In this document: positions 5,977 through 64,000 of the stretch, piece by piece | How positions within the stretch are numbered: the stretch's first letter is position 1 | How the letters are laid out: each line of letters starts with the position of its first letter | Position numbers and translations under genes: made by a program | The notes under the pieces: model-generated | What the model saw: only the letters and a program-made list of their open reading frames with translations | Database searches by the model: none | What the model was told of the DNA's origin: nothing | Origin: Lepisosteus oculatus | Taxonomy: Eukaryota; Chordata; Actinopteri; Semionotiformes; Lepisosteidae | DNA length: 64,000 nt | NCBI RefSeq assembly: GCF_040954835.1 | Contig: NC_090709.1 | Span: forward strand, 41,300,490-41,364,489 | Direction: 5' to 3'

Positions 5977-5982
5977 TTTATT
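5977..5982 (-). terminator. poly(A) signal of Ig1
   Basis: AATAAA on the minus strand, about 180 bp past the Ig1 stop codon. The 3' UTR sequence here differs from that shared by Ig2 to Ig8. Confidence 0.5.
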
Positions 5983-6161
5983 TTTTTGTATGATATCCAC
6001 TCCAATCTTAGTCCCACACAAGTATTCAAAAAGCAAAAGAACTGGCAGTTCGTTTCCATTCATACGTAACACGCCCACAAACTTGAACACCACAAAGGGG
6101 CTGAAGAAGGAAAAGCAAAGATCATCACCAGGTGAGAGTCGGCGGGGGTCCGAGCGCCTCT

Positions 6162-9136
6162 CTAGGGGGTCTCTCCTGTCCGGGTCCCGCTGGCCTCTCT
6201 CCGTCTGGACCTGATCTCCGTCGCGATCACGGCGCTGACCAGTCCGGTCAGGCCGCAGGCCACCAGGGAGGTGTGCACTGTGTGGGAGGTGGAGCCCCCT
6301 GCTGGAGGGAAGAGGGTGGTGCAGGAGGGGGGTTAGTCTAGCAGTGGGGAGTCTGGGTTCTCACCCCCCTCCGTCTGCTGCAAGACCCCCAGCCAGCTGG
6401 TCACCCTGTTCCCTGAGGTGACCATCAGTCGCAGGACCAGTGAGGTCATGGAAGGGCAGAGAGGTCTTTGATGGTCAGTGGGACAGTCGGGGTTTCAGTA
6501 CCTGGACTGGGGCTCTCAGTGCTGGGGGCTTCAGCCGTCTTGGGGTCCCCTGAAAAGATGAAAACTCTTGTCTCATGTCTGTCAGATTTACCCGAGAAGG
6601 TCAATAATAGCATCAGGGAAGGAGAGAGAGACACAGGGAGAAGGAGAGGGAGAGACAGACAGGTGAAATCAGTGTGCAGGAGGAGTGAAGCAGCAGACAG
6701 TCGGGGTGTCGGTACCTGGACTGGGGCTCCCAGTGCCGGGGGCTTCAGTAATCTTGGAGTCCCCTGGAATCACAACACACAGGTGAAAGGAGCAACTTGT
6801 AGCAACACTGTGAAACAGCAACAGACAATGAAATCCCTCATCACTTCTGAAACAAATCACATCGCAGATGGACGGGGTCTCTAGTTGGTGGCTTGACTGA
6901 TTAACTGCAATTCCTGTTTACCTGGGGGATTCCTCTGGAGTCGAAGAGCCCCACAGACATGTCCTGGAGCTCAGGAGCAGCACAGGGCAAACTAGACACC
7001 TCCCTGACACCCCCCCCTTCCCCCAGCGTGCAACACAACACAACTTTTCCTGCTGCTCGGCCAGACTGATCTCGCCTCCCTGGTTATTGAGTGCACCTAT
7101 TTCTTAACTGCGTATTTATTTCTGCATTTCCTCTCTCCAGAAAGGTTTCGTTGCAATGATCTGTACCTTATGAATGGCTGTTATTTTAAAGCAACGGATC
7201 CTGTTTATCCTCCTTTCTTGTTATGAATGTTATTAATGTTCATATTTATGGCTTAAATAAGGACAAACAAGTTCAAGATCCTCACCTGCTGTCACCTGTA
7301 GAACCGCAGCAGGCTGCCAGTTACACCTGTACTGGCCAGCGTCTCCAGGTTGTATATTTGTTATCCGGAGGGAGGAATCGTCAAGCAGAGAGAATCTGTG
7401 CTGTGGATCATTAATGCCTTTACTCACTTGTCCATCCTGCTGTCTGGACACCACAAAGGAGATACCATCTCCCTTGAAGACTGTCCACTCTAATTGCTGA
7501 CCGACTGAGGGAGGCTTTCTCACAGCACAGATCAGGATTACAGATCCTCCCTCTGGGACAGTGACAGTGCGGCTCGCTGGACCTGTGGAAGAACAGTCTG
7601 GTGAAGAACAGAACAGGGGCTTGAGGTTTACAAACCATTTATGAGGAACATGGAAGAGGATGTTTCAGACACAAGTGCTGCAGCTGTGTGTATAACCAGT
7701 TAATTCAGTTTTCATTAATGTATATTCACTGTAGTCTTATCTCATTGTTTGTAGATGTTTTCTATTATTAACCGAAGTTCCTGTGTTTTATCATCGCAGG
7801 ATATTGCTATAATGGCCAGGACTGGGGCTCTGATGGGAGACAGTCCACTGGAGACAATTGTCTCCTGTCCAAGGACTGGGGCTCTCATGTGAGACAGTCC
7901 ACTGGAGACAGCTGTCTCCTGTCCCAGGACTGGGGCTCTCATGTGAGACAGTTGTTACTCAGTGCAGAAACTAATGGCGGAGAGTCCATAGAAAATCACA
8001 GGACATTGTGAAAATCAGACACTTGCAACATCTTTGCGCAGTTTCCTGTCCAACTGTTAACCTGCAGCTGAAATTTCCTTTTCACTGTGAAAACTGAAGC
8101 TCCTGCCTCACAGAGGTGAATTGAAGTTCAATTGAAGTTGAAGATGATCTTTGCTACGTTGAGGAGATGTTTTTTTTTTAAAACATCTCTTGTCCGCATG
8201 CAGGTTATCAAAATGTCTTGTGAAGAACATCCTTGTCCTTCAGGCAGCTCTGAGCCAGACAGTTTCTCCAGAAATACCGACCTCCTCATCCCAGAACTCA
8301 ACACGTCAGATCCCCAGAAGCCTTCAAAATCCGTCCCGTTCACAATCCGGATGTCGAAATAACATTTAGACACAGGCGTATAACACCAGTGTTTCCCTGA
8401 ATTCCACTGTTTTACATTATACTCAACAATTCAAACTAGCAATATCTGCGATACACTTATATGAGTATTTAATAACCCTTATCATGTTTTAGGCAAGAAA
8501 TGTTGGAAAAACATTATTATTAATAGAATTATAACTGTGTATTGGCACCTACTACACAAGTGTAATAGGTGTATAAAAGCAGTATTTCTCTTAGTAAAGT
8601 TGTATATATAAGGAAAACAATTGGTTTTATTCTTAAGTTTTGTTTTAGAGTACAATTATCTGCGGTACATTATATTTTGATGATGAAAACTGTAAATGCA
8701 ATTTAATCACATCGCGTGCCGATTTGAAATCCCTCAGGCTGTAGAAAACCCGTGCTGAAGAAACACTAGTGACGCAGTAGTGATACTAGTGATCGTGCGT
8801 CTGTAGTGACACGAGACCTGTCACTCCAGATGTGCTCCAGGTGTGTGAGACCAGCAGACAGGGGCCCCACTGCTGGAGCCTCAGGGGGGGTCAGAACAGT
8901 GTGGAAATCCTGCCCCCCCCCCCCACACTGACACTGGGAGCCCCCTCACTCTCCAGCCCCCCACACTGACACTGGGAGCCCCCTCACTCTCCAGCCCCCC
9001 ACACTGACACTGGGAGCCCCCTCACTCTCCAGCCCCCCCGAGAGAAGACAGTCCTGCTCTTACCTGAGAGGGATCCTCCGGCCAGGGAGAGGAGGACCAG
9101 CAGGAGAAGCTCTGGGGCTCCTCTGAGTCCCTCCAT
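6162..9136 (-). CDS. Ig1: single-Ig-domain membrane receptor
   Basis: Five exons are read (high to low): 9064-9136 signal peptide (MEGLRGAPELLLLVLLSLAG...), 7286-7582 V-like Ig domain, 6716-6763 and 6502-6549 stalk, and 6162-6301 membrane plus tail with stop. All have GT-AG borders in phase 1. The joined frame is 606 nt, 201 residues. The Ig domain has B-strand Cys (ILICAV), C-strand Trp (LEWTV) and F-strand Cys (GDAGQYRC). The stalk exons encode 16-residue Pro/Ser/Thr-rich pieces ending SPSPG. The last exon gives TSLVACGLTGLVSAVIAT and a short basic tail with no tyrosine. It is the most divergent minus-strand paralog (WTVFKGDGISFVV against WSVTPRGGVDHTV) and has its own 3' UTR. Family membership beyond Ig superfamily is unknown. 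Confidence 0.7.
7806..7950. repeat. 54-bp palindromic unit, 2-3 copies
   Basis: Units with 'agtccactggagacagctg' followed by 'tctcctgtcccaggactggg'. This is the same unit that forms the 17-copy array at 26397-27315. The centre is the palindrome GGAGACAGCTGTCTCC. Confidence 0.8.
8926..9040. repeat. 38-bp intron-1 minisatellite of Ig1, 3 copies
   Basis: Unit 'cacactgacactgggagccc' plus 'cctcactctccagccccc', just inside intron 1 near the exon 1 donor. The transcribed strand is G-rich. The same repeat occupies this position in Ig2 to Ig6 and Ig9. Confidence 0.85.
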
Positions 9137-9262
9137 GACTCTGCGCTCTGAGAGAGTGAACTGAGGGAGCTCAGCTCTTCCTCTCCTGCCTGCAGCTGTG
9201 TGTCTGTGACGGGGCTGGGCGAGAGAGGGGCTGTGATGTCACCCACCTGCCCCTAGAGGCTT
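9137..9262 (-). promoter_or_regulatory. Ig1 proximal promoter / 5' UTR
   Basis: The upstream block is conserved in Ig1 to Ig6. It carries an ETS/PU.1-type site (AGAGGAAG, 9177-9184) and a CRE-like TGACATCA (9234-9241) on the minus strand. No TATA box is seen. Function is inferred from conservation and motif type only. Confidence 0.45.
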
Positions 9263-9399
9263 TTTTGTAATAGAATAGCACTCATGGTTTCCTCTCCCAA
9301 CCTTATTTCTGTTTCTCCGTATTTAGACGCGAATAACAGCCGTACACAATTTTAGAAGGCGCATACAGAAGTTTAAATTAGAGGCCCACAGACGCTTTT

Positions 9400-11547: not shown

Positions 11548-11553
11548 TTTATT
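11548..11553 (-). terminator. poly(A) signal of Ig2
   Basis: AATAAA on the minus strand (acaaaaataaactgac) in a 3' UTR block conserved in Ig2 to Ig8, about 270 bp past the stop. Confidence 0.65.
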
Positions 11554-11818: not shown

Positions 11819-14800
11819 CTAGGGGGTCTCTCCGGTCCGGGTCCCGTTGGCCGCTCTCCGTCTGGACCTGATCTCTGTCGCGATCACGGCGCTGACCAGT
11901 CCGGCCAGGCCGCAGGCCACCAGGGAGGTGTGCACTGTGTGGTAGGTGGAGCCCCCTGCTGGAGGGAAGAGGGTGGTGCAGGAGGGGGGTTAGTCCAGCA
12001 GTGGGGAGTCTGGGTTCTCACCCCCCTCCGTCTGCTGCAAGACCCCCAGCCAGCTGGTCACCCTGTTCCCTGAGGTGACCATCAGCCGCAGGACCAGTGA
12101 GGTCTTTGATGGTCAATAGAGGTCATTAAAGACCACAGAAGGTCATTAAGGGTCAGTGCAGATCAGTAAAGATCTGTGGAGGTCATAAGGGGTCAGTTGA
12201 GAACATTTAGAGTGGATGGAGGGTCAGTGGAGGTCAAGAATGGAAAGTGAAGGTCAATAGGGTCATGTAGGGGCAGTGGAGGTCGTGGAGGGGCAGTAGG
12301 GTCATGTAGGGGCAGTGTATGTCACGAGTGGGCAGTGGAGGTCATGAAGGTCATTACGATTCAGAAGACACACCAGCCAATCAGAGCGCAAGAGAGTGTG
12401 AAAACGTCCCGGCCCACACAGCTCGTTAGGCTGCTGTGGTTAATTGATGTGAGGACAGCAGGCAGTCTGGTTCTGGACAGGGTGTCAGTGTCGACCCAAG
12501 ACGGGAGGAGAGACAGAGAGAGGAACAGACAGACAGGTGAAATCAGTGTGGAGGAGGAGTGAAGCAGCAGTCAGTACCTGGACTGGGGCTCTCGGTCTCG
12601 TGCTCCTCAGAAAAACTGGAGTTCTCTGGAAAGAGATTACAGACATACTGTGTTTACTATTAACAGTACAGGGGAGGAGAGAAAGAAGGATAGAGGAACA
12701 GACAGACAGGTGAACTATTACAGGACAGGAGAGAGAGACACAGGGAGAATGAAAGAGGTAGAGAGAGAGGAACAGACAGTTTAAATATGTGTGCAGGAGG
12801 AGTGAAGCAGCAGACAGTCGGGGTTCTCAGTACCTGCGCTTGAGATCAGGATGTTATAGTCTTCATGACTGTTGGGGTTCCCTGGAAACAGATTGCAGAC
12901 ATATTCAATATTAAAAGAACAGGGGAGGAGAGAGAGAGAAGGAGAGAGAGGAATAGACAGACAGTTTAAATTTGTGTGAAGGAGGAGTGTAGCAGCAGAC
13001 AGTCGGGGTGTCAGTACCATTCCCGGAGATCAGAATGTCGAAGTCATCATCAGGAAAGGGGTTCCCTGGAAACAGATTGCAGACATATTCAATATTAAAA
13101 GTACAGGGGAGGAGAGAGAGAAATAGACAGACAGTTTAAATTTGCGTGCAGGAGGAGTGAAGCAGCAGACAGTCGGGGTGTCAGTACCATTCCCGGAGAT
13201 CAGAATGTCGAAGTCATCATCAGGAAAGGGGTTCCCTGGAAACAGATTGCAGACATATTCAATATTAAAAGTACAGGGGAGGAGAGAGAGAAATAGACAG
13301 ACAGTTTAAATTTGTGTGCAGGAGGAGTGAAGCAGCAGACAGACGGGGTGTCAGTACCATTCCCGGAGATCAGAATGTCGAAGTCATCATCAGGAAAGGG
13401 GTTCCCTGGAAACAGATTGCAGACAAGAGTATTTCCATGATTCAGAAGAGTCCTGTATCCTGTCACTGTGGTATTGTCCTGTAAGACTGTAAGAGAGGCT
13501 ACAGGTGTGAAGCTCCTCCTGCTTGAGTGGATCACCTGAGGATCTCATGCAGCCCTTTCCCAAAGGATCACCGGGAATCTGCCTCACATAGGAGCTAAGT
13601 GATCCAAGGATCCAATGTCCTGATAAATTCATCTCGGCTGCATTTCACAACGGGCCCTTTAGGAGGAACGTGTTGGAGAGACACAGCCTGAGCAGTGTGG
13701 CGCGAGGCGGGGGGCGTGGCCAGTGTGGAGGCGGAGCCCCGGTAGAAGGGCGGAGCCTGGCCTTCGCAGTCCCAGCTGCCTATAAAGGTGCACTGGACAC
13801 CCCACCGAGGGGAGGAGCAGGGCCACCCCCGGAGGGGGAGTTCCACACCGACAGTCCCGGAGGGGGATTGCACCAGGGTGAGGTGTTTCTTTCCCACCTG
13901 TCCCGCTGTGCAGTACCTCCGGGGCAGGCTGCTCCTTTTCCAGACTGGAGCCCGTTGAACAGGGGAAGCCCAGCCTGGAGGTCAAGAGGCACAGCGGTTT
14001 TTCCTTTTTGTTTTATTTTTCACCTCTCCTTTTGTAGTATTTTTGGTCCCCTGCTAACCTCACACTGGTGCTCCCGTCCCCCCACCAGTGGCGTGGACTT
14101 TTTTACCGGAGCTTGCCGCAGCGCCTCGCACACTGCACTGTCTCGCCAGGACCCTCCTCACAGACTCCTCCTGACAGCAGAGCAGCGTCTGCTGCTGCTG
14201 CTTCTCTTGCTCCACACTCCTCCGAGGCCAGAGCTGCTGCCAGCTGGGAGGAAACCCCTCTGGGCCAGACCAGCTCAGGACAGACACAGCAGGGAAGAGC
14301 TTCGGACTGCTCACCTGTCGTCACCTGTAAATCTGCCACCGGCTGCCTGTTACAGCTGTACAGTCCAGAGTCTCCAGGCTTCACACTCCATATCAAGAGG
14401 GAGGAATCGTCAAGCACAGAGAATCTTTTCTGTGGATCATCAACTCCTTTGACCAGACTTCCATCCTCAAGTCTGGACAGCACAGTGTGACCAACACCAT
14501 CTCTCAGAGTGACTGACCACCGTACTGGCTCATGGGAAGAAACAGGCTTTCTCACAGCGCAGATCAGGATTACAGCTCTTCCCTCTGGGACAGTGACAGT
14601 GTGGCTCGCTGGACCTGTGGAAGAACAGTCTGGTGAAGAACAGACTCAGAGCAACAGCCCCTCTGTCTACATGGGAGACAGACAAGACACACAGAAGGAG
14701 GGGCTGGGATTGGAAAATTGAAGAAAAGAACTTATTTCAATCAATCATCTTCCAGCTGTGTCTCATCCTGCTACAGAATGAGCTCAGGATCAGCTTCACT

Positions 14801-16413
14801 GATGACCTTCTGTACGTTTTTCTTTGACATCTCATTGTGTTTCTGCAGGGCATGAGCATCATGTGACAGAGCGCCGCCCTCCAGGGAGCACAGAGCAGTT
14901 ACAGACTCTCTGGGTCCTGACTGTCCCCTCACATTCCCCCGATTCAGGCATGAAGAGAAGCCGTTTCTCTGAGCTGTGTGTGCAGAGCTGCAACAGGTGA
15001 CAAAGCCATACAGAGTACAGTGTACAGTGTACAGTACAGTAGAGTGTAGTACAGTATTATAATGTGTAGTACAGTATAGTGTAGTACAGTATAGTATTGT
15101 ATATTGTAGTACACTAGTGTATTGTATAGTACGGTATAGTGTAGTATAGTATTATAATGTGTAGTACTGTTTAGTGTAGTATTTATTGTATATTGTAGTA
15201 CACTAGTGTATTGTATAGTACAGTAGAGTGCAGTACAGTATTAGACATGTAATACTGTACAGTGTAGTACAGTACAGTATTGTATTGTATATTGTAGTAC
15301 ACTAGTGTATTGTATACTACGGTATAGCAGAGCGTGGTATAGAATGCCCCAAAAAGATTTTTACAGATGACAATGCCATACAGTGTACAGTATTGTATTG
15401 TATAGTACAATATTATAGTATTAATACAGTATTATATATTGCTTTGTCATTCAGACAAGCTCAGTGTAGTGACTGAGAGATTCAACAAGCACTGGGTAAT
15501 ATCTGATGAGAGAACAGATATTACCCAGATCACACATCCCCAACATCTGTGCGCAGTTTCCTATCTAACAGTGACCACGGCCTGAGCCCTTGAACCACAG
15601 AGGTCATGTGTTTGAAGAGGCTCACTGCCATTTGTTACAGTAAGGAGAAGCTGTTGTTTTAAAATAGGCTCTTGTTGCCAAGCAGCTTCTCAAAAACTGT
15701 TTTGAACGGCATTTTCATCGCTCAGTGTGCTGGAAAGGGTGATGATCGCAGGGAGCTCTGAGCCAGACCCTTTCAGATAAGCTGACCTGTGAAGAAATCT
15801 CATCTCAGTGTCCATCAAGCCATCCCCAGAAACTGTCAAAATACTTTACGTGTTAGGAAATAAACAACATTCTAACATGGGTGTGTGAAACCAGTATATT
15901 TCCCTTATCAGCAGTGTTGTACGTTATATTCAGTAATAAAAGCTAGGAGCTGTCTGTTATATATCCGTATTCTCAATGTATCAGTGTTTTATACAAGAAG
16001 TATTGAACAAATGTTGATAATTGTGATGACGATTATTCTATGTGTGTGTTACTCACCAGCAGACAGGGGCGCAGCTGCTGGAGCCTCAGGGGGGTCAGAA
16101 CAGTGTGGAAATCCTGCCCCCCCCACACTGACACTGGGAGCCCCCTCACTCTCCAGCCCCCCACACTGACACTGGGAGCCCCCTCACTCTCCAGCCCCCC
16201 ACACTGACACTGGGAGCCCCCTCACTCTCCAGCCCCCCACACTGACACTGGGAGCCCCCTCACTCTCCAGCCCCCCACACTGACACTGGGAGCCCCCCTC
16301 ACTCTCCAGCCCCCCTGAGAGAAGGCAGTCCTGCTCTTACCTGAGAGGGATCCTCCGGCCAGGGAGAGGAGGACCAGCAGGAGAAGCTCTGGGGCTCCTC
16401 TGAGTCCCTCCAT
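11819..16413 (-). CDS. Ig2: single-Ig receptor with five stalk exons
   Basis: Exons (high to low): 16341-16413 signal peptide; 14315-14614 V-like Ig domain; stalk exons 13358-13405, 13188-13235, 13018-13065, 12834-12881 and 12578-12625; 11819-11958 membrane and tail. Each stalk exon is exactly 48 nt, phase 1 at both ends. The joined frame is 753 nt (250 residues). The Ig domain has Cys in ILICAV, Trp in VRWSV and Cys in SGLYSC. Three stalk exons encode nearly the same acidic peptide (NPFPDDDFDILISGNG), one a diverged form (NPNSHEDYNILISSAG) and one NSSFSEEHETESPSPG. The end is TSLVACGLAGLVSAVIAT plus EIRSRRRAANGTRTGETP. It is a near copy of Ig3. Ligand and cell type are unknown. Confidence 0.75.
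12080..12355. repeat. GGTCA-rich intron minisatellite with DR3 element (Ig2)
   Basis: Degenerate repeats of 'catgtaggggcagtggaggt' in the intron before the membrane exon. They end in a perfect DR3 nuclear-receptor-type element, AGGTCATGAAGGTCA, at 12339-12353. Confidence 0.7.
13640..14100 (+). other. antisense TATA-containing segment in the Ig2 intron
   Basis: Between the Ig exon and the first stalk exon lies a GC-rich segment absent from this position in Ig5. On the plus strand it has GC boxes, TATAAA at 13781-13786 and a good splice donor at about 13877 (ccagg|gtgagg). It could be a transposed promoter or an LTR-like fragment. No terminal repeats or target duplication were identified. Confidence 0.35.
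15003..15440. repeat. GTAC-rich AT satellite in Ig2 intron 1
   Basis: Irregular short repeats of 'tagtacagtatagtgtagta' and 'ttgtatattgtagtacacta', rich in the self-complementary gtac and tac/gta steps. Present in intron 1 of Ig2 to Ig6 and Ig9 at different lengths. Confidence 0.85.
15441..16115 (-). other. Ig2 intron 1, conserved non-repetitive part
   Basis: Sequence conserved in Ig3, Ig4, Ig5, Ig6 and Ig9 (for example 'aaggagaagctgttgtttta' and 'tactttacgtgttaggaaat'). No ORF with splice borders was seen. Confidence 0.55.
16116..16315. repeat. 38-bp intron-1 minisatellite of Ig2, 5 copies
   Basis: Same C-rich unit as in Ig1, with 5 copies next to the exon 1 donor. Confidence 0.85.
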
Positions 16414-17165: not shown

Positions 17166-20100
17166 CTAGGGGGTCTCTCCGGTCCGGGTCCCGCTGGCCG
17201 CTCTCCGCCTGGACCTGATCTCCGTCGCGATCACGGCGCTGAGCAGTCCGGCCAGGCCGCAGGCCACCAGGGAGGTGTGCACTGTGTGGGAGGTGGAGCC
17301 CCCTGCTGGAGGGAAGAGGGTGGTGCAGGAGGGGGGTTAGTCCAGCAGTGGGGAGTCTGGGCCCCCCCGTCTGCTGCAAGACCCCCAGCCAGCTGGTCAC
17401 CCTGTTCCCTGAGGTGACCATCAGCCGCAGGACCAGTGAGGTCTTTGATGGTCAGTAGAGGTCATTAAAGACCACAGAAGGTCATTAAGGGTCAGTGCAG
17501 ATCAGTAAAGATCTGTGGAGGTCATAAGGGGTCAGTTGAGAACATTTAGAGTGGATGGAGGGTCAGTGGAGGTCAAGAATGGAAAGTGAAGGTCAATAGG
17601 GTCATGTAGGGGCAGTGAAGGTCGTGGAGGGGCAGTAGGGTCATGTAGGGGCAGTGTATGTCACGAGTGGTCAGTGGAGGTCATGTAGGGGCAGTGTATG
17701 TCATGAGTGGTCAGTGGAGATCATGTAGGGGCAGTGGAGGTCGTGGAGGGGCAGTAGGGTCATGTAGGGGCAGTGTATGTCACGAGTGGTCAGTGGAGGT
17801 CATGTAGGGGCAGTGGAGGTCGTGGAGGGGCAGTAGGGTCATGTAGGGGCAGTGTATGTCACGAGTGGTCAGTGGAGGTCATGAAGGTCATTACGATTCA
17901 GAAGACACACCAGCCAATCAGAGCGCAAGAGAGTGTGAAAACGTCCCGGCCCACACAGCTCGTTAGGCTGCTGTGGTTAATTGATGTGAGGACAGCAGGC
18001 AGTCCGGTTCTGGACAGGGTGTCAGTGTCGACCCAAGACGGGAGGAGAGACAGAGAGAGGAACAGACAGACAGGTGAAATCAGTGTGGAGGAGGAGTGAA
18101 GCAGCAGTCAGTACCTGGACTGGGGCTCTCGGTCTCGTGCTCCTCAGAAAAACTGGAGTTCTCTGGAAACAGATTACAGACATACTGTGTTTACTATTAA
18201 CAGTACAGGGGAGGAGAGAAAGAAGGATAGAGGAACAGACAGACAGGTGAACTATTACAGGACAGGAGAGAGAGACACAGGGAGAATGAAAGAGGTAGAG
18301 AGAGAGGAACAGACAGTTTAAATCTGTGTGCAGGAGGAGTGAAGCAGCAGACAGTCGGGGTGTCAGTACCATTCCCGGAGATCAGAATGTCGAAGTCATC
18401 ATCAGGAAAGGGGTTCCCTGGAAACAGATTACAGACATATTCAATATTAAAAGTACAGGGGAGGAGAGAGAGAGAAGGAGAGAGAGGAATAGACAGACAG
18501 TTTAAATTTGTGTGAAGGAGGAGTGAAGCAGCAGACAGACGGGGTGTCAGTACCATTCCCGGAGATCAGAATGTCGAAGTCATCATCAGGAAAGGGGTTC
18601 CCTGGAAACAGATTGCAGACATATTCAATATTAAAAGTACAGGGGAGGAGAGAGAGAAATAGACAGACAGTTTAAATTTGTGTGAAGGAGGAGTGTAGCA
18701 GCAGACAGACGGGGTGTCAGTACCATTCCCGGAGATCAGAATGTCGAAGTCATCATCAGGAAAGGGGTTCCCTGGAAACAGATTACAGACAAGAGTATTT
18801 CCATGATTCAGAAGAGTCCTGTATCCTGTCACTGTGGTATTGTCCTGTAAGACTGTAAGACAGGCTACAGGTGTGAAGCTCCTCCTGCTTGAGTGGATCA
18901 CCTGAGGATCTCATGCAGCTCTTTCCCAAAGGATCACCGGGAATCTGCCTCACATAGGAGCTAAGTGATCCAAGGATCCAATGTCCTGATAAATTCATCT
19001 CGGGTGCGTTTCACAACGGGCCCTTTAGGAGGAACGTGTTGGAGAGACACAGCCTGAGCAGTGTGGCGCGAGGCAGGGGGCGTGGCCAGTGTGGAGGCGG
19101 AGCCCCGGTAGAAGGGCGGAGCCTGGCCTTCGCAGTCCCCGCTGCCCCGCCCCAGCTGGGCGGGTCCTATAAAGGCGCACTGGACACCCCCCCCGAGGGG
19201 AGGAGCAGGGCCACCCCCGGAGGGGGAGTTCCACACCGACAGTCCCGGAGGGGGATTGCACCCGGGTGAGGTGTTTCTTTCCCACCTGTCCCGCTGTGCA
19301 GTACCTCCGGGGCAGGCTGCTCCTTTTCCAGACTGGAGCCCGTTGAACAGGGGAAGCCCAGCCTGGAGGTCAAGAGGCACAGCGGTTTTTCCTTTTTGTT
19401 TTATTTTTCACCTCTCCTTTTGTAGTATTTTTGGTCCCCTGCTAACCTCACACTGGTGCTCCCGTCCCCCCACCAGTGGCGTGGACTTTTTTACCGGAGC
19501 TTGCCGCAGCGCCTCGCACACTGCACTGTCTCGCCCGGACCCTCCTCACAGACTCCTCCTGACCGCAGAGCAGCGTCTGCTGCTGCTGCTTCTCTTGCCC
19601 CACACTCCTCCGAGGCCAGAGCTGCTGGCAGCTGGGAGGAAACCCCTCTGGGCCAGACCAGCTCAAGACAGACACAGCAGGGAAGAGCTTCGGACTGCTC
19701 ACCTGTCGTCACCTGTAAATCTGCCACTGGCTGCCTGTTACAGCTGTACAGTCCAGAGTCTCCAGGCTTCACACTCCATATCAGGAGGGAGGAATCGTCA
19801 AGCAGAGAGAATCTGTTCTGTGGATCATCAACTCCTTTGACCAGACTTCCATCCTCAAGTCTGGACAGCACGGTGTGATCAACACCAATTCTCAGAGTGA
19901 CTGACCACCGTATTGGCTCATGGGAAGAAACAGGCTTTCTCACAGCGCAGATCAGGATTACAGCTCTTCCCTCTGGGACAGTGACAGTGTGGCTCGCTGG
20001 ACCTGTGGAAGAACAGTCTGGTGAAGAACAGACTCAGAGCAACAGCCCCTCTGTCTACATGGGAGACAGACAAGACACACAGGAGGAGGGGCTGGGATTG

Positions 20101-34500: not shown

Positions 34501-34727
34501 TCCAGCCCCCCACACACTGACACTGGGAGCCCCCTCACTCTCCAGCCCCCCACACACTGACACTGGGAGCCCCCTCACTCTCCAGCCCCCCACACTGACA
34601 CTGGGAGCCCCCTCACTCTCCAGCCCCCCCGAGAGAAGACAGTCCTGCTCTTACCTGAGAGGGATCCTCCGGCCAGGGAGAGGAGGACCAGCAGGAGAAG
34701 CTCTGGGGCTCCTCTGAGTCCCTCCAT
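31507..34727 (-). CDS. Ig5: single-Ig receptor with a distinct 30-codon stalk exon
   Basis: Exons (high to low): 34655-34727 signal peptide; 32555-32854 Ig-A domain; 32211-32300 stalk; 31507-31646 membrane and tail. All junctions are phase 1; the joined frame is 603 nt (200 residues). The Ig domain has LNCAV, VRWSV and SGLYSC, with LLILSV where paralogs have LLIWSV. The stalk exon is unlike any other in the cluster. It encodes GTGDTGTTARTKTSPGKPAA and then DRGENCGESA, so it has one unpaired Cys that could form a disulfide-linked dimer. It has good borders (atctccccag|GG, GCAG|gtatgt). This is the shortest unit of the array (about 4.0 kb). Confidence 0.65.
31800..31925. repeat. short GGTCA repeat region in the Ig5 intron
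   Basis: Short form of the GGTCA minisatellite seen in the other genes, here without the terminal DR3. Unique sequence follows to 32210. Confidence 0.6.
33243..33590. repeat. GTAC-rich AT satellite in Ig5 intron 1
   Basis: Shorter version of the Ig2 and Ig3 array; flanks nearly identical to both. Confidence 0.85.
34278..34628. repeat. 38/40-bp intron-1 minisatellite of Ig5, about 9 copies
   Basis: C-rich array next to the exon 1 donor. One unit carries a gatccccctc variant. Confidence 0.85.
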
Positions 34728-44700: not shown

Positions 44701-44917
44701 TGTATTTGTGTACACTTTTTGTAATTAAGTGCAAATAGCCATCTTCAATTCTACTGGAGGAGAACTATCCCCCTCACACCCCCACAACCTAGCTCTGCTG
44801 AGATCAGGCTCAGTAAGGCAGAGACCGAGCCGGTGTCTTACCTGTCTGGGCCAGAGGGGCGCTCCCACAGAGCAGGAGACAGATCCACAGAGCACCGGAC
44901 ACAGCTGAGCCCGTCAT
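41736..44917 (-). CDS. Ig7: single-Ig receptor with an alternative signal peptide
   Basis: Exons (high to low): 44842-44917 signal peptide; 43502-43801 Ig-A domain; 42830-42961 stalk; 41736-41875 membrane and tail. All junctions are phase 1; the joined frame is 648 nt (215 residues). The signal peptide, MTGSAVSGALWICLLLCG and then SAPLAQT, is unrelated to that of Ig1 to Ig6. So are its promoter and intron 1, which is AT-rich with no minisatellite. The Ig domain has LICAV, VQWSV and SGLYSC. The stalk has three 14-residue units. A 3' remnant of an Ig-B exon (43072-43163) remains but lacks a usable phase-1 acceptor. Ig8 is a close duplicate. Confidence 0.7.
42020..42610. repeat. GGTCA-rich intron minisatellite with DR3 element (Ig7)
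   Basis: Long array of the shared type. Perfect DR3 at 42591-42605. Confidence 0.8.
43072..43163 (-). pseudogene. truncated Ig-B exon of Ig7
   Basis: Only the E-G strand part survives (LYIHDVSLDDSGLYYC and AVAELEVLGG, with donor). At 43163 it is replaced by a CR1-derived satellite unit. The new upstream AG (gttgcag) would put the exon in the wrong phase. Confidence 0.7.
43164..43330 (-). repeat. single CR1-derived satellite unit in Ig7
   Basis: One 121-bp-type unit (plus strand cccagccctgtggttgaagc) lies in the opposite orientation to the big arrays. It joins directly to the truncated Ig-B exon. Confidence 0.7.
43880..44840 (-). other. Ig7 intron 1, AT-rich unique sequence
   Basis: AT-rich, non-repetitive DNA, duplicated nearly unchanged at 49420-50370. 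No exon with coding potential and splice borders was found. Confidence 0.55.
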
Positions 44918-47455: not shown

Positions 47456-50448
47456 CTAGGGGGTCTCTCCTGTCCGGGTCCCGCTGGCCGCTCTCCGTCT
47501 GGACCTGATCTCCGTCGCGATCACGGCGCTGACCAGTCCGGCCAGGCCGCAGGCCACCAGGGAGGTGTGCACTGTGTGGGAGGTGGAGACCCCTGCTGGA
47601 GGGAAGAGGGTGGTGCAGGAGGGGGGTTAGTCCAGCAGTGGGGAGTCTGGGTTCTCACCCCCCTCCGTCTGCTGCAAGACCCCCAGCCAGCTGGTCACAC
47701 TGTTCCCTGAGGTGACCATCAGCCGCAGGACCAGTGAGGTCTTTGATGGTCAATAGAGGACATTAAAGACCACAGAAGGTCATTAAGGGTCAGTGCAGAT
47801 CAGTAAAGATCTGTGGAGGTCATAAGGGGTGAGTTGAGAATATTTAGAGTGGATGGAGGGTCAGTGGAGGTCAAGAATGGAAAGTGAAGGTCAATAGGGT
47901 CATGTAGGGGCAGTGAAGGTCGTGGAGGGGCAGTAGGGTCATGTAGGGGCAGTGTATGTCACGAGTGGTCAGTGGAGATCATGTAGGGGCAGTGGAGGTC
48001 GTGGAGGGGCAGTAGGGTCATGTAGGGGCAGTGTATGTCACGAGTGGTCAGTAGAGGTCATGAAGGTCATTACGATTCAGAAGACACACCAGCCAATCAG
48101 AGCGCAAGAGAGTGTGAAAACGTCCCGGCCCACACAGCTCGTTAGGCTGCTGTGGTTAATTGATGTGAGGACAGCAGGCAGTCCGGTTCTGGACAGGGTG
48201 TCAGCGTCGACCCAAGACGGGAGGAGAGACAGAGAGAGGAACAGACAGACAGGTGAAATCAGTGTGGAGGAGGAGTGAAGCAGCAGTCAGTACCTGGACT
48301 GGGGCTCTCAGCGTTGGGGTCTTTAGTACTATCAGGGCTCCCTCTCGTCACAGTGTTGGGGTCTTTAGTACTATCGAGACTCCCTGGAGTCACAGTGCTG
48401 TGTCCTTTAGTACTGTTGGGGCTCCCTGGAGTCACAGTGCTGTGTCCTTTAGTACTGCTGGGGCTCCCTGGAGTCACAGTGCTGGAGTTTTGAGTTCTCT
48501 TGGGTTGCCCTGGAAACACAGTATGAGCCTCAGGTTAAAAGACGAACTTCAGTCACCAGAGAAGGAAGAAATGGTACGAACCGGTTTCTCAATCTGACCA
48601 CACTGCTCCTCATCCTCACCTCCCAGCACCTCCAGCTCTGCCACAGCCTGACTGTTACAGTAGTACAGTTCAGAGTCGTCCAGCGATGCATCATGAATGT
48701 AAAGAGCACCATTGGACCTCTGCCTGCAACAAGCTGCCCAGCCCTGTGGTTGAAGCCGATACCCTGGCTTCTCTCCAGACACAGCTGGGTGAGCTTCCCC
48801 AGTCAGGACAGGAGGCTCTTCTGTACACAGAGGGTGGTGGGGGTGGGGAACAAGCCACCCAGCTTGATGAGGACGGGATCCTCCACTGAATTATCTCCTA
48901 AGTATCAAACGGGCTCGATAAGCCTCATCGCCTCCTCTCGTTCATGACCTTGCCCCATTTTCTCATGTGTTTTGGGACAAAAATGAAAAATGCAAATATT
49001 CTGTCATAAGTAGTCTGGTGAACACAGAAACCAGGTTCAATCTGCTCACCTGTCATCACCTGTAAATCTGCCACCGGCTGCCTGTTACACCAGTACAGTC
49101 CGGAGTCTCCAGGCTTCACACTCCATATCAGGAGGGAGGACTCGTCAAGAAGAGAGAATCTGTTCTGTGGATCATCAGCTCCTTTGACCAGACTTCCATC
49201 CTCAAGTCTCACCACCACAGTGTGATTAGGACCACCTCTCAGAGTGACTGACCACAGTACTGGCTCATTGAAAGAAACAGGCTTCGACACAGCACAGATC
49301 AGGGATACAGATCTTCCCTCTGGGACAGTGCGGATCACTGGTCCTGCAGAAACAGTTTTTCTCATTGAAACACTGATCCTGAACACGCACACCGAAATAC
49401 TACCACAAATCATCCACAGACAGATGATATTCTACCACCCTGTGGTGTAAATGGGTTTTTAGCAGTTGTTGCTTCAGAAAACGTTTACACAACATAAATA
49501 CTGTATCCTATAGTTTTTCTTATGTGTAGTCACTGCTTTCATTTTAACCAGTAAAAATATCGTTAATAGTCACTAGGAATGTACGTGAATGTTTTGCTTT
49601 AAGCACCCAATTAAAAAATATTACATTTGACTTTGCTAATAAACAAGAGACGAATAACTGAACTTAATGCAGCTAAATAATATTTTCAATGATGAATAAG
49701 CCGACGTAAATCACACTGAAAACCAGAAAGAAAACACAACTTTTCGGTTATACAGCCTTCTTCTGGTCTCCAGTGTGAGATGACACCTACTTGTCTACTT
49801 TTCGAGTAGTTTTCACAACCAAAACCACAGCACAGCTTAGCCTCATGTTCTCTCATTGGCAGCAGTTAATTTAATTCACCAAATAACCCATTACAACTCA
49901 ATTGTTAAATTAAAAATTACACTTCAGCATTGAGTTAAAACAACCTAGAGCATTATTTTGCTGTCTGTCAAAGCCTGACTATTATCACAGCTACTGTACA
50001 TACTTTGTGTTAAACATTTTAATCGTATTAAGAAAATGTTTGAATTGTACAATATTTTTCTAATATGGCTGCAATTTCACATTTCATTTTTCTGTCCACA
50101 TATTTTTAACGTTACATCTCTGGTCAAAACAGTTAAATATGAAAGGAAAATTCATAAGTTAATAATTCAATCTACAGCTAATCTGAAAGTAAATGTCACA
50201 TCTATATACTGAACCCATAACTAAGGTAGGATGTATTTGTGTACACTTTTTGTAATTAAGTGCAAATAGCCATCTTCAATTCTACTGGAGGAGAACTATC
50301 CCCCTCACACCCCCACAACCTAGCTCTGCTGAGATCAGGCTCAGTAAGGCAGAGACCGAGCCGGTGTCTTACCTGTCTGGGCCAGAGGGGCGCTCCCACA
50401 GAGCAGGAGACAGATCCACAGAGCACCGGACACAGCTGAGCCCGTCAT
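47456..50448 (-). CDS. Ig8: single-Ig receptor, close paralog of Ig7
   Basis: Exons (high to low): 50373-50448 signal peptide (same as Ig7); 49050-49343 Ig-A domain; 48294-48509 stalk; 47456-47595 membrane and tail. All junctions are phase 1; the joined frame is 726 nt (241 residues). The Ig exon is 6 nt shorter than usual, as two codons near the N-terminus are missing (RTVPEG for RNVTVPEG), and reads LICAV, VLWSV and SGLYWC. The stalk has five 14-residue units, two more than Ig7. A truncated Ig-B exon (48620-48711) is present as in Ig7, so that damage predates their duplication. Confidence 0.7.
47730..48070. repeat. GGTCA-rich intron minisatellite with DR3 element (Ig8)
   Basis: Short array of the shared type. 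Perfect DR3 at 48055-48069. Confidence 0.75.
48620..48711 (-). pseudogene. truncated Ig-B exon of Ig8
   Basis: Same break as in Ig7 (LYIHDASLDDSELYYC). The F-strand context has further decayed from DDSGLYYC to DDSELYYC. Confidence 0.7.
48712..48880 (-). repeat. single CR1-derived satellite unit in Ig8
   Basis: Same insertion and junction as in Ig7. Confidence 0.7.
49420..50370 (-). other. Ig8 intron 1, AT-rich unique sequence
   Basis: Near copy of the Ig7 intron with small deletions. No further exon was seen. Confidence 0.55.
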
Positions 50449-51838: not shown

Positions 51839-54800
51839 CTCCCAGCACCTCCAGCTCTGCCACAGCCTGACTGTTACAGTAGTACAGTCTAGAGTCGTCC
51901 AGCGATACATCATGAATGTAAAGAGCACCACTGCTATAAACATGGTATTTCTTTTGTTCTGTGTTGGGTATCTTCCCTGTGATGTCAGTGGTCTGTGTGT
52001 CCCCCTCTCTGTCCCTCCTGTATGTCCACTGGACTGAGGTCCCCTGTGCTGGAGGAGGGTCACTGCAGTTCAGGACGAGGTGGTGACCCTCAGGCACAGA
52101 GATTCGCCCTGTGGGACAGTGACACGGACACTGAGAGAGGCCGACTCAGGACAGAACGTAGGGAAAGCCAGTCTCTGTGAGAGGGCAGTAGGCTGGAGGT
52201 GCTTGTCTGGACTACATTTCCTACATGGTGCCTGTTCTGTTGTCTGATACACTCATCACGGTGTCCCGACACGTATAGATTCTCCATAGGTTCCTGCTGT
52301 AAGGGATTAAGAGTGTGTTCAGAGTTTCAACAACCTTTAACATGAATCTCAAATGTGTTTTAGTTCGGGAATAAGAGATAGGGACGTCATGTCTGACAGA
52401 TGACCTCTGACCTCTGACCTCTGTGCCAGGATAACAGAGTGTTGATTCAGGTGATGCAGTAAAAAAACATCTGTTTTCCATATGTGAAGAAACAATTTGA
52501 ATTTCTGATCTCTCCTGAGTCAGAAAGAGAGAGTATTTTATTAGAGAACAGAAGCTGTGGAGTTCAGTCATTGAAACGTTTAATTCAAGACAGCGCTCTG
52601 TCCTGACAGCAGTCTGAGCACAGGCAAATTCATTTTGAATTCAGAAATGAAATCTACTTTCAGATTTAAAGGAGCTGTTTTGCAAGAAGATCTAGTGTGA
52701 GATCGCAACAGTCAAAACACAAACTGGACAAGAAGATCTCAAGACAGATCTAGGAAAAGAGTAAGATGAAAGTCCTCACCTGTCGTCACCTGTAAATCTG
52801 CCACCGGCTGCCTGTTACAGCTGTACAGTCCAGCGTCTCCAGGCTTCACACTCCATATCAGGAGGGAGGAATCGTCAAGCACAGAGAATCTGTTCTGTGG
52901 ATCATCAGATCCTTTGACCAGACTTCCATCCTCAAGTCTGGTCACCACAGTGTGATCAACACCTCTCTGAGTGACTGACCACTGTACTGGCTCATGGGAA
53001 GAAACAGGCTTTCTCACATCACAGTCCAGGATTACAGATCCTCCCTCTGGGACAGTGACAGTGCGGATCGCTGCACCAGACTGGAAGAACAGTCTGGTGA
53101 AGAACAGACTCAGAGCAACAGCCCCTCTGTCTACATGGGAGACGGGCCGACACACAGGAGGGGCTGGGATTGGAAAATTGAAGAAAATAACTTATTTCAA
53201 TCAAACATCTTCCAGTTGTGTCTCATCCTGCTACAGAATGAGCTCAGGATCAGCTTCACTGATGAACTTCTGTTCGTTTTTCTTTGACATCTCATTGTGT
53301 TTCTGCAGGGCATGAGCATCATGTGACAGAGGCGCCGCCCTCCAGGGAGCACAGAGCAGTTACAGACCCTCTGGGTCCTGACTGTCCCCTCACATTCCCC
53401 CGATTCAGGTATGAAGAGAAGCCGTTTCTCTGAGCTGTGTGTGCGGAGCTGCAACAGGTGAACTTGTACAGGTGACCCAGCCATACAGAGTAGAGTACAG
53501 TACAGTATTGTATAGTACAGTACAGTAGAGTGTAGTACAGTATTATAATGTGTAGTACTGTTTAGTGTAGTACAGTACAGTATTGTATTGTATATCGTAG
53601 TACACTAGTGTATTGTATAGTACAGTAGAGTGTAGTATAGTTTTATAATGTGTAGTACTGTACAGTGTAGTACAGTACAGTATTGTATTGTATATTGTAG
53701 TACACTAGTGTATTGTATACTACGGTATAGCAGAGCGTGGTATAGAATGCCCCAAAAAGATTTTTACAGATGACAATGCCATACAGTGTACAGTATTGTG
53801 TTGTATAGTACAATATTATAGTATTAATATAGTATTATATATTGCTTTGTCATTCAGACAAGCTCAGTGTAGTGTGAGAGATTCAACAAGCACTGGGGCT
53901 CTGATGAGAGAACAGATATGACCCAGATCACACATCCCCAACATCTCTGCGCAGTTTCCTGTCTGTCAGTGACCACGGCCTGAGCTCTTGACCACACAGG
54001 TTATGTGTTTGAAGAAGCTCACTGCCGTTTGTTACAATAAGGAGAAGCTGTTGTTTTAAAATAGGCTCTTGTTGCAAAGCAGCTTCTCAAAAACTGTTTT
54101 GAACGGCATTTTCATCGTTCAGTCTGCTGGAAAGGGTGATGATCACAGGGAGCTCTGAGCCAGACCCTTTCAGACAAACTGACCTGTGGAATTCCTGGAG
54201 AAATCTCATCCCAGTGTCCAACAAGCCATCCCCAGAAACTGTCAAAATACTTTACGTGTTAGGAAATAAACAACATTCTAACATGGGTGTGTGAAACCAG
54301 TATATTTCCCTTATCAGCAGTGTTGTACGTTATATTCAGTAATAAAAGCTAGGAGCTGTCTGTTATATATCCGTATTCTCAATGTATCAGTGTTTTATAC
54401 AAGAAGTATTGAACAAATGTTGATAATTGTGATGACGATTATTCTTTGTGTGTGTTACTCACCAGCAGACAGGGGCGCAGCTGCTGGAGCCTCAGGGGGG
54501 GTCAGAACAGTGTGGAAATCCTGCCCCCCCCCCCCACACACTGACACTGGGAGCCCCCTCACTCTCCAGCCCCCCACACTGACACTGGGAGCCCCCTCAC
54601 TCTCCAGCCCCCCACACTGACACTGGGAGCCCCCTCACTCTCCAGCCCCCCACACTGACACTGGGAGCCCCCTCACTCTCCAGCCCCCCACACTGACACT
54701 GGGAGCCCCCTCACTCTCCAGCCCCCCACACTGACACTGGGAGCCCCCTCACTCTCCAGCCCCCCACACTGACACTGGGAGCCCCCTCACTCTCCAGCCC

Positions 54801-54940
54801 CCCACACTGACACTGGGAGCCCCCCTCACTCTCCAGCCCCCCCGAGAGAAGACAGTCCTGCTCTTACCTGAGAGGGATCCTCCGGCCAGGGAGAGGAGGA
54901 CCAGCAGGAGAAGCTCTGGGGCTCCTCTGAGTCCCTCCAT
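51839..54940 (-). CDS. Ig9: Ig-A plus Ig-B gene lacking stalk and membrane exons
   Basis: Exons (high to low): 54868-54940 signal peptide; 52780-53070 Ig-A domain; 51839-52108 Ig-B domain. The Ig-A acceptor has moved: the usual site is altered and the next AG (ctggtgcag|CG) restores phase 1, giving a 291-nt exon. Ig-A has ILDCDV, VQWSV and AGLYSC. Ig-B has LVLNC, QWTYRRD and DDSRLYYC. Below 51839 the expected stalk, membrane exon and poly(A) block are replaced by short repeats and CR1-satellite, and the Ig8 signal exon follows. Reading through the Ig-B donor reaches a stop near 51750, which would give a soluble protein. Splicing on into Ig8 exons would also stay in phase. It may be a pseudogene. 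Confidence 0.5.
53475..53850. repeat. GTAC-rich AT satellite in Ig9 intron 1
   Basis: Shared array type with Ig2- and Ig3-like flanks. Confidence 0.85.
54530..54843. repeat. 38-bp intron-1 minisatellite of Ig9, 8 copies
   Basis: C-rich array next to the exon 1 donor. Confidence 0.85.
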
Positions 54941-56220: not shown

Positions 56221-56224
56221 TTAA

Positions 56225-58960: not shown

Positions 58961-59009
58961 CCGCTGAGGTCACCAATAGGAATTCAGTGCAAGGGCTACC
59001 TTTGGTATG

Positions 59010-60454: not shown

Positions 60455-63400
60455 ATGGAGCGTGGCGGTCCTGTTCCAGCGTTTCTCCTGCTGACGCTCC
60501 TGGTCCGGAGCTCCCGGTCAGGTAGGACAGTGACCCCCCTCGGGGATCGTGGGATGTGTTGCTGGGCCCGGGTCTCGGCACGCCAGGCGTTGACGCTAGG
60601 AAGAGAAGCTGATGTCAGAGTGGAGTGAGGGATGAGAATATTCAGTGAGGATGTTCTCGAGTGAGATGAGTTATTCTGTCCCTTCGCCTGTGTCACTCAT
60701 GACTCAGAATTCACTTAGCGTGATTTCTGTCACACGTCTGTGTCACCCGTCACAACTGGGGTGGGGAGGTCGGGTTGTCCTGTCTGTATCACACTGTCCA
60801 GACTGTGGTTGGACTGTCCAGGCCTGTCTGTCCCCCACTGTCCAGACTCTGGTTGGACTGTCCAGGCCTGTCTTTCCCCCACTGTCCAGACTCTGGTTGG
60901 ACTGTGTTGTCCTGTCTGTCCCCCACTGTCCAGACTCTGGCTGGACTGTGTTGTCCTGTCTGTCCCCCACTGTCCAGACTCTGGCTGGACTGTGTTGTCC
61001 TGTCTGTCCCCCACTGTCCAGACTCTGGTTGGACTGTGTTGTCCTGTCTGTATCACACTGTCCAGACTCTGGTTGGACTGTCCAGGCCTGTCTGTATCAC
61101 ACTGTCCAGACTCTGGTTGGACTGTGTTGTCCTGTCTGTCCCCCACTGTCCAGACTCTGGTTGAACTGCGTTAGCTGTCTGTATCACACTGTCCAGACTC
61201 TGTAATATATTAACAAGTTATAAATAGTTAATAATATTAAAGGTTGCTAATAGTTTTAATAACATTGTAGTAATGCCCCTAATTATTATTAACATGTTTA
61301 GTAACCTGAGCAGCAGGAGGACTGAGGCAGATCGCTGCCACACCCTGGGCCTCTCCCGCCAACCCAGACTCAGTGGGGCTGTGTGGGTTGTGTTTAGTGC
61401 CGGGGGGGGTGATGATCTGAATGAAGGTTCATTGCAGACAACATTAACCTCTACCCTGATCTTCCACAGGGCTGACACATCACTCTGTCCCAGAGGGAGA
61501 TCCAGTAACCCTGGAGTGTGGCATGTCAAACCCCCCTTCTCCCAGTGAGCTACTGCAGTGGACAGTCACTCCGAGAGGTGGTCCTGATCACACTGTGGTG
61601 ACCAGACATGAGGATGGACATGTGGTCAAAGGCGTTAATGATCCACAGAACAGATTCTCTCTGCTTGATGATTCCTCCCTCCTGATATGGAGTGTGAAGC
61701 CTGGAGACGCTGGACTGTACAGCTGTAACAGGCAGCCGGTGGCAGATTTACAGGTGACGACAGGTGAGGATCTTGAACTTGTTTGTCCATATCTTGCTCC
61801 TGTCTGATGTGACCGTTTATCAGGCATCTTGCGGCAGACCGACAGCTGACGAGAGGGCGGTGGAGTTAAGTCTGGCAGCCGGATCAGAATCCCAGTTATT
61901 CCCACTCCCCTGTCCTCTCCGCCCGGGAAGAGCATCCCTGGGGACGTTTACTGACGGAGACTGCCTGACACCTCCTGTCGTGCTGCTCAGTTCCACCCCC
62001 TGCTGGCGAACTGGAGCCAAGCGACCGGACAGTACTGGGTCCTTTCTGCTCTGTAGGCCCAGTGTGGGTGAGCTGGGCCGGTCGTCCTTAATGGCCAATT
62101 ACACCCCCAAAAACAATACTAGTGAATCAGTCAAGCCACAGTTCAGAGACCCTTCCCAACTGTGGCCTGTCTTGTGTCTTAACTTATTAGGGCTTTCGCT
62201 GTTGACGATGTTTCGTTGTGTGGCAGAAGGTGGTTTTTTTTTTTAAATGTCAGTGCGTTGTGATTCCAGGGGACCCCGTGATTACTGAAGCCCCCGGCAC
62301 TGAGAGCCCCGGTCCAGGTACCGACACCCCGACTGACTGCTGCTTCACTCGTCCTGCACACAGATTTCACCTGTCTGTCTGTTCCTCTCCCTGTCTCTCT
62401 CTCTCTCTCGCTCCCTGTACTCTGTTACATGGGGTAAGGGGGGGTCTGGGCTGTCGCTAAGACACCCTGTACTTCTGGGGTGACCAGAGGGCTGCTGCTG
62501 CTCTGGGGGGTCAGCGAGGTCGCGGTCATGCCCTCCTGTCCAGTGTGGAGACAAGAGACAGGTACCTGCAGGCCAGTAACGCCTCCCCCCTCGTGGGAGA
62601 GCTCACTCACCAGTTCAGTGTCTCTGGTTGGCCTCGTTGCTGTGGGACAGCAGTAGCTGCCTGTTGTCGAAATGAAATGGAGATGATAACGTCAGGGGCA
62701 GCAGAGAAGGAGTTTCTGTGTGGAGTTCGCACGTTCGCTCTAGTGTTGGGTGGGTCCAAAGACATGCTGATGGGGGTGTGTGAGTGTGAGTGTGTGTGTC
62801 CTGTGATGGACTGCTGTCCTGTCCAGGGTGTGTGTGTGTCCTGTGACGGACTGGTGTCCTGTCCAGGGTGTGTGAGTGTGTGTGTGTCCTGTGATGGACT
62901 GGTGTCCTGTCCAGGGTGTGTGAGTGTCTGTCCTGTGATGGACTGGTGTCCTGTCCAGGGTGTGTGAGTGTGTATGTGTGTCCTGTGATGGACTGCTGTC
63001 CTGTCCAGGGTGTGTGAGTGTGTGTGTGTGTCCTGTGATGGACTGGTGTCCTGTCCAGGGTGTGTGAGTGTGTGTGTGTGTCCTGTGATGGACTGCTGTC
63101 CTGTCCAGGGTGTGTGAGTGTGTGTGTGTCCTGTGATGGACTGGTGTCCTGTCCAGGGTGTGTGTGTGTGTGTCCTGTGATGGACTGCTGTCCTGTCCAG
63201 GGTGTGTGAGTGTGTGTGTGTCCTGTGATGGACTGGTGTCCTGTCCAGGGTGTGTGTGTGTGTGTGTGTCCTGTGATGGACTGCTGTCCTGTCCAGGGTG
63301 TGTGTGTGTCCTGTGATGGACTGGTGTCCTGTCCAGGGTGTGAGTGTCTGTCCTGTGATGGACTGGTGTCCTGTCCAGGGTGAGCCCTGCCTTGTGCCTG

Positions 63401-63959
63401 TTGCCTGCTGGGACAGACTCCAGCTCCCCCAGTCCCCCCAGTGGCCCTGGACTGGAGGGAGCTGTGGGAATTTGGACGGAGGGATGATGATGTCCTCAGT
63501 GCTGCAGTCCCAGGTCATGTGAGAGGGGTCTGCTCTGCCTCTCTCTCACAGTCCAGCCTCAGACACTGGGACGCCACCAGAGCGGGCACAGGGGCCGGGA
63601 GCCCAGCCCTGCACCGGGAGACACCTTTCTCCCTTGTCTGTCCACGCAGGGAGAGACGCGGGAGACGACACGGCCACGGGTAACACAGGATCCCCCACCG
63701 CCGCAGGTAGGAGAGAGAGGGCGGGCTGTACCGCGGACGGACGAGGCGCTGAGCCGCCGTCCCCCCAGCCTCACCGCCCGATCCCAGCGCCACAGCGCCA
63801 CCTGGTGGAGGCCGGTGCGCACTGCCCCCCTCCTCCCTCTCCCTCTCCCTCTCTCTCTCTCCGCAGTCGTGGCGGCGGTGGCCTCCCCCCTCTGCGCGCT
63901 GGTCCTCCTGCTCGGACTGGCCCTGCTCTGGAGGAGGTCCAGGAGACGCCGGGCCGCAG
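60455..63959 (+). CDS. Ig10: divergent plus-strand Ig receptor, 3' end beyond window
   Basis: Exons (low to high): 60455-60521 signal peptide (MERGGPVPAFLLLTLLVRSS...); 61470-61763 Ig-A domain; 62270-62317 stalk (DPVITEAPGTESPGPG); 63650-63706 second stalk piece (RDAGDDTATGNTGSPTAA); 63867-63959 membrane. All junctions are phase 1. The Ig domain has LECGMS, LQWTV and AGLYSC and is clearly related to the minus-strand family. The membrane exon differs: a strong helix (VAAVASPLCALVLLLGL...) followed by RRSRRRRAA, then a donor (GCAG|gtaggg). At least one more cytoplasmic exon therefore lies past 64000. It could be the long-tailed member of the family. The inverted orientation and absence of shared promoter or intron repeats mark it as an old paralog. 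Confidence 0.65.
60770..61205. repeat. 44-bp minisatellite in Ig10 intron 1, about 10 copies
   Basis: Units of 'ccccactgtccagactctgg' plus 'ttggactgtgttgtcctgtctgt' style sequence. Frames on both strands are artefacts. Confidence 0.9.
61764..62269 (+). other. Ig10 intron 2
   Basis: Unique sequence between Ig and stalk exons. The open frame that crosses it is Ig exon read-through plus intron; no separate exon was recognised. Confidence 0.5.
62690..63480 (+). mobile_element. SINE with internal minisatellite expansion, copy 3
   Basis: Left flank 'tgtggagttcgcacgttcgc' and 'gggtccaaagacatgctgat'; right end 'gcctgctgggacagactcca' and 'ggccctggactggagggagc'. Between about 62785 and 63385 the 'cctgtgatggactgctgtcc' segment is repeated about 12-14 times. 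Its flanks differ from copies 1 and 2, so this is an independent insertion and expansion, in the Ig10 intron before the second stalk exon. Confidence 0.7.
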
Positions 63960-64000
63960 GTAGGGGGCTCGCCGCTCTGGGGCTCTGTGAGGGGGGGCAG

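Follow-up and report, generated by a model that had tools for sequence, protein, structure and literature searches.

What kind of molecule is encoded by the ten immunoglobulin (Ig) genes that stand side by side on C14 of Lepisosteus oculatus, and does their family already have a name? The genes occupy a stretch of 64,000 nucleotides (C14:41300490-41364489 of a 1.2-Gb genome), called the window here, in which an original prediction had seen a tandem, fast-evolving cluster of Ig receptor genes, a view that our analysis supports. We observe an exon anatomy of leader, V-set, stalk and membrane exons, local tandem duplication, close copies at one locus, a location on the chromosome of the major histocompatibility complex (MHC), and an excess of change from strand A to strand C'' of the type A Ig domain with strands D to G constrained. 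The genes probably form a tandem, DICP-like family, its members being single-pass receptors of the cell surface with linkage to the MHC. The cluster belongs to a known class, the clustered diversified Ig receptors of fish, and its family may have been named before.

The tandem layout is clear from landmarks and exons alike. The short landmark said to recur along the window has eight exact matches, all where they had been placed, whereas shuffled sequence would yield 0.02. Five of them (16543, 22401, 30880, 34908 and 41114) lie 130-181 bases before a leader exon, and the other three (5821, 11196 and 46834) each border on a 121-base tandem repeat that has no adjoining leader. The Ig loci number nine on the minus strand and one on the plus strand, as predicted. 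Their exons follow one order, namely a leader, one or two type A V-set exons (IgA), sometimes a type B V-set exon (IgB), between one and five stalk exons, and lastly the membrane exon, which holds the stop codon. There are two leader types, L1 in seven genes of the window and L2 in G7 and G8. A common set of all four exon classes had been proposed for the ten genes; it holds for seven (G1-G5, G7 and G8), which have open joined frames of 200-502 amino acids and phase-1 introns throughout, and G6, G9 and G10 deviate from it. The models, in window coordinates, are as follows.

G1, 6162..9136, minus strand: leader L1 9064-9136, IgA 7286-7582, stalk 6716-6763 and 6502-6549, membrane/tail 6162-6301; 201 amino acids.
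G2, 11819..16413, minus strand: leader L1 16341-16413, IgA 14315-14614, five 48-nucleotide stalk exons in 12578-13405, membrane/tail 11819-11958; 250 amino acids.
G3, 17166..22220, minus strand: leader L1 22148-22220, IgA 19703-20002, four 48-nucleotide stalk exons in 18115-18771, membrane/tail 17166-17305; 234 amino acids.
G4, 23023..30750, minus strand: leader L1 30678-30750, IgA 28507-28806, IgA 25405-25704, IgB 24456-24725, stalk 23920-24345 (Ser/Thr-rich, 14-residue repeats), membrane/tail 23023-23162; 502 amino acids.
G5, 31507..34727, minus strand: leader L1 34655-34727, IgA 32555-32854, stalk 32211-32300, membrane/tail 31507-31646; 200 amino acids.
G6, 35530..40933, minus strand: leader L1 40861-40933, truncated type A Ig exon 38668-38841, IgB 36900-37169, stalk 36658-36789, membrane/tail 35530-35669.
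G7, 41736..44917, minus strand: leader L2 44842-44917, IgA 43502-43801, IgB 3' remnant 43073-43168, stalk 42830-42961, membrane/tail 41736-41875; 215 amino acids.
G8, 47456..50448, minus strand: leader L2 50373-50448, IgA 49050-49343, IgB 3' remnant 48621-48716, stalk 48294-48509, membrane/tail 47456-47595; 241 amino acids.
G9, 51839..54940, minus strand: leader L1 54868-54940, IgA about 52780-53070 (usual acceptor altered, an in-frame AG close by), IgB about 51839-52108; borders by eye.
G10, 61470..62317, plus strand: IgA 61470-61763, stalk 62270-62317; borders by eye.

Across the eight models with a membrane exon, 67 of 68 junction sites are canonical, and the exception is a G6 coordinate set 3 bases off. 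A tblastn search with one Ig exon found 11 type A and two type B exons in the window, and a third full-length type B copy lies in G9 (51840-52109). All ten Ig exons submitted to Pfam, out of the 13 from the tblastn set, scored above the V-set cut-off, the models returned being general Ig ones. The two types share 29-38% identity (tblastn), both are V-set by Pfam, and each domain has a single cysteine pair. G4 is the gene with two type A exons and one type B exon. In G6 the type A exon ends early, after about 58 codons, and the frame through leader, IgB, stalk and membrane exon is open without it. The IgB of G9 is followed by neither a stalk nor a membrane exon. In G10 the Ig and stalk exons were identified, but neither a leader nor a membrane exon of the known types could be located.

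Change within the type A exon is unevenly distributed. Pairwise counting over 13 type A copies (three of them beyond the window, the truncated G6 copy dropped) gave a nonsynonymous to synonymous rate ratio (dN/dS) of 1.96 for codons 1-56 (bootstrap 95% interval 1.27-3.05) and 0.48 for codons 57-99 (0.25-0.93), intervals that are too narrow if conversion is common, because the copies are related and were counted in pairs. A contrast of this size between the exon halves was reached by none of 10,000 random column splits. The predicted fold of the domain is V-set (mean pLDDT 84), with solved V domains as its structural matches; naming strands by our own reading of the model's strand list, the fast part would run from strand A through B, C and C' to C'' and take in the CDR1- and CDR2-like loops, and the slow part would be strands D to G plus the CDR3-like loop. 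Constraint on the second half suggests that protein is, or was until recently, made from these copies. For IgB (dN/dS 1.33, four copies, synonymous divergence dS 0.032) and for the membrane exon (0.59, eight copies) there is too little change to read either ratio.

The exons around this domain are far more uniform. Eight copies of leader L1, one lying beyond the window, have the same 75 bases throughout, and the eight membrane exons of the window are nearly alike (dS 0.037); type A exons diverge far more than either. Among the L2 copies (G7, G8 and one beyond the window), flanking introns differ by 3.0% (90 of 2986 sites), and the type A exon differs at 7.0% of its nonsynonymous and 6.4% of its synonymous sites. 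Among six L1 copies, the difference is 5.9% over 500 bases of upstream intron (426 of 7279 sites, an indel-rich part included) and, in the exon, 9.5% and 8.0%, respectively; the 450 alignment columns adjoining the exon differ by 0-6%, and positions within it by up to 12%. Furthermore, unrelated introns can accompany similar type A exons: those of G7 and G9 are 94.2% alike, and the flanks of the two genes agree at only 42% and 40%. Similar exons in unrelated flanks are the trace expected of exon exchange by conversion or unequal crossing-over, and from these alignments we infer that such exchange has occurred between the genes.

The array does not stop at the window. It reaches about C14:41.41 Mb, some 45 kb further, with three more type A copies on the plus strand. 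In a genome search with one type A exon, 21 of 41 candidates matched, all on C14: 14 at 64-100% identity within C14:41.31-41.41 Mb (10 minus, 4 plus, the truncated copy counted) and seven at 31-36%, of which three are type B or type C exons inside the cluster and four lie at C14:39.67-39.78 Mb. All 15 matches of a type B query (39 candidates) fall inside the cluster, as do all nine of the membrane exon, searched genome-wide at the DNA level, one of these being beyond the window. At the sensitivity of single-protein and DNA searches, close copies are confined to the cluster. Right of the window we also noted a divergent membrane exon of the family (L030:4737-4850, minus strand) and a single type C V-set exon (L032:9318-9599, plus strand) with 40-55% identity to the type B copies.

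The same chromosome carries the MHC. Class I searches gave 33 matches among 44 candidates. Of these, 32 lie on C14, the ten strongest at C14:38.59-39.15 Mb, more than 2 Mb from the cluster, and the remaining one is on C13. All six class II beta matches (10 candidates) lie at C14:38.79-39.05 Mb. Three weak class I matches (E 3.6e-7 to 1.7e-4, over the family's cut-off) lie closer, at C14:41.092-41.132 Mb, the nearest being at least 174 kb from the first membrane exon of the cluster. In bowfin, class I and class II are likewise linked, on pseudochromosome 14, as they are in tetrapods and cartilaginous fishes, and they are unlinked in teleosts, according to the passages of PMC8423624 drawn on here.

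Which family, then, are these genes? The original prediction was that their type A motif matches none of the fish families it listed (NITR, NILT, DICP, LITR and MDIR), so that they may be an undescribed family. By the features tested they are not NITR or NILT; DICP, by contrast, is the main candidate name, and an undescribed family is a possible alternative. We rejected NITR identity on its hallmark features. In the sections of PMC2442602 used here, the V domain, the I domain or both are followed by a J or J-like motif (FGXGTXLXV) in nearly all medaka NITRs, and the I domain, where there is one, has six conserved cysteines. No FGXG follows the V domain in the ten window IgA exons aligned, all of which end in CN.QP.A.LQV, and IgB has two cysteines in its three window copies; as some NITRs lack an I domain (PMC2442602), the cysteine comparison bears on IgB only. 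Both families are clustered V-set receptors, and in part of the NITR family, on the same partial account, leader and Ig are on separate exons; however, most NITRs have an immunoreceptor tyrosine-based inhibitory motif (ITIM), and activating ones a charged membrane residue, and none of our eight models has either.

NILT identity was rejected in the same manner. The excerpts of PMC3022915 consulted describe a V-type Ig domain, phase-1 introns and a connecting peptide, all as here, and a first intron that is near-uniform in most salmon NILTs. They also describe a second cysteine pair (CX3C, CX6C or CX7C), whereas the cluster has two cysteines per IgA or IgB domain, and NILTs carry activating (ITAM) or inhibitory tyrosine motifs on cytoplasmic exons after the membrane exon, the exon in which the cluster genes end. 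Most CD300 domains, in the part of PMC3031540 cited, have two cysteine pairs and a WCR motif in V-domain strand C; the Ig domains here have one pair and read VQWSVT or similar in strand C. We extended this comparison to MDIR solely through the similarity stated in those pages of PMC3031540.

DICPs are MHC-linked, form tandem clusters and have two Ig classes, D1 and D2, of which D1 is V-type and varies on its front sheet; many carry ITIMs. Set against this description, rather than against DICP sequences, the cluster agrees in sharing a chromosome with MHC class I and II and in having two distinct Ig classes with a V-type IgA, and the MHC linkage is what makes DICP the main candidate name. The D1 pattern of variation is matched in part: strands C, C' and C'' vary, but A and B vary likewise, and F and G of the front sheet are conserved. 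A difference lies in the tail, in which none of eight has a tyrosine. By this comparison of descriptions, the cluster is either DICP or a close unnamed relative. We met no account of it in the literature searched, to which the main DICP papers do not belong, and make no claim as to whether one is in print.

If the cluster is indeed a DICP-like receptor family, each protein would comprise a leader, at least one V-set domain, a stalk, a membrane span and a short tail, and the fast half of the first domain would be its ligand-binding face. Copies would diversify by unequal crossing-over and gene conversion with leader and membrane exons staying uniform, and the ligands may be variable surface molecules, either MHC class I-like or microbial. 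Several observations weigh against this reading or restrict it. The entire Ig exon has a dN/dS of 1.20 (0.83-1.75), not different from 1, and the codon-56 cut was picked after a sliding window. Synonymous change in the type A exon exceeds the intron difference, which means that selection is not the sole cause and that some of the diversity either is older or came from elsewhere. The hydrophobicity of the membrane span is moderate (1.5-1.9), class I near the cluster is represented by weak matches only, with strong ones more than 2 Mb away, and V-set exons 1.5 Mb off on C14 could be the DICPs instead.

That last point leads to the strongest competitor, a real though less favoured one, in which the cluster would be a distinct family of the MHC chromosome that has no name, and this fish would have its DICPs elsewhere, either in the V-set exons at C14:39.67-39.78 Mb or in another set. 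Several V-set exons at C14:39.66-39.79 Mb (L044, L045 and L046), about 1.5 Mb from the cluster, do have different motifs; these are possible DICP or CD4/LAG3-like genes. Their position nearer MHC class II, their 31-35% identity to type A and the one signal-less tail common to the eight membrane exons all speak for a separate family, but the two Ig classes, the MHC linkage and the C to C'' variation agree with DICPs as described.

The tail and span bear on function as well as on name. Among the 21 residues of the predicted span, none is Lys, Arg, Asp or Glu in any of the eight models, and a histidine stands close to the outer end. The tail, EIRSRRR followed by eleven further residues, lacks signalling motifs; the last 40 residues of each model are free of tyrosine, and the stop codon lies inside the membrane exon in all eight. 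The usual rules, as given in the portions of PMC3031540 and PMC3022915 used here, offer an ITIM route or adaptor pairing through a basic membrane residue, and both are closed to these proteins. Because they have no tyrosine or signalling motif and a span free of Lys, Arg, Asp and Glu, the proteins may signal through another partner or serve as adhesion molecules, ligands or decoys.

Taken further, the same features would have the genes encode not receptors but ligands or adhesion molecules, which receptors on other cells would read and which would have diversified in the manner of chicken BG genes. We regard this as unlikely, even though the spans without Lys, Arg, Asp or Glu and the tyrosine-free tails of all eight models, the mucin-like, Ser/Thr-rich stalks of G4 and G6-G8 with their 14-residue repeats, and the location on the MHC chromosome are in keeping with it. 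(Stalks elsewhere are mostly acidic 16-residue units, one per exon, in G2 and G3, and other short forms in G1 and G5.) BG genes, in the excerpts of PMC4046983 available to us, are V-domain genes of the MHC region that expanded rapidly, with many hybrid genes. Those excerpts also give BG proteins a cytoplasmic region made up of many small repeat exons and see no obvious homogenisation among the genes, whereas the cluster has one short tail exon without heptad repeats, repeats in the outer stalk instead, and homogenised, uniform leaders.

A bolder reading would have the cluster as an undescribed, MHC-linked and haplotype-variable receptor family with signal-less tails, its binding face driven by change in MHC class I-like molecules encoded on the same chromosome. 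This is doubtful, but if true, receptor and ligand would have stayed side by side as a pair within the MHC, in a fish retaining the ancestral class I-class II linkage. At this locus one could ask whether innate receptors of fish and MHC ligands were neighbours from the start, and what keeps leader and membrane exons uniform as the binding domain changes. That the array is instead decaying, with few working genes, is very improbable, for despite the broken G6 and G9, the IgB remnants in G7 and G8 and the incomplete G10, seven of the ten genes are open and the second half of the Ig exon is constrained.

Several further features were noted along the way. On C14, 62-65 kb left of the window (L049:4569-8015), all three exons tested encode C-type lectin domains. 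Thirteen MHC class I alpha-2-like exons, with an identical E-value of 3.4e-15 and open frames of 223-232 amino acids, are spread over about 26 Mb (C14:6.5-33.0 Mb), as if a class I exon had recently spread. The genome V-set scan scored 150 of 2007 candidates and the present cluster was not among the matches listed, so that counts elsewhere are lower bounds; V-set exons were found on C4 and, densely, over about 16 Mb of C18 (3.3-19.1 Mb), perhaps the immunoglobulin heavy-chain and T-cell receptor loci. Pairs on C18 recur at a spacing of 930-940 kb (for example, 7.387 and 8.317 Mb), by either a recent large duplication or an assembly effect. Within the window, an array of 48-base units (2.2 kb, 93% matches) lies between G9 and G10 at 56232-58428, and a 38-base repeat in 3 to 13 copies directly follows the leader in all seven L1 genes, a ready copy-number marker. 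Its blocks are the following.

8919-9038: 38-base repeat, G1.
16119-16315: 38-base repeat, G2.
21615-22122: 38-base repeat, G3.
30455-30652: 38-base repeat, G4.
34276-34629: 38-base repeat, G5.
40488-40835: 38-base repeat, G6.
54532-54842: 38-base repeat, G9.

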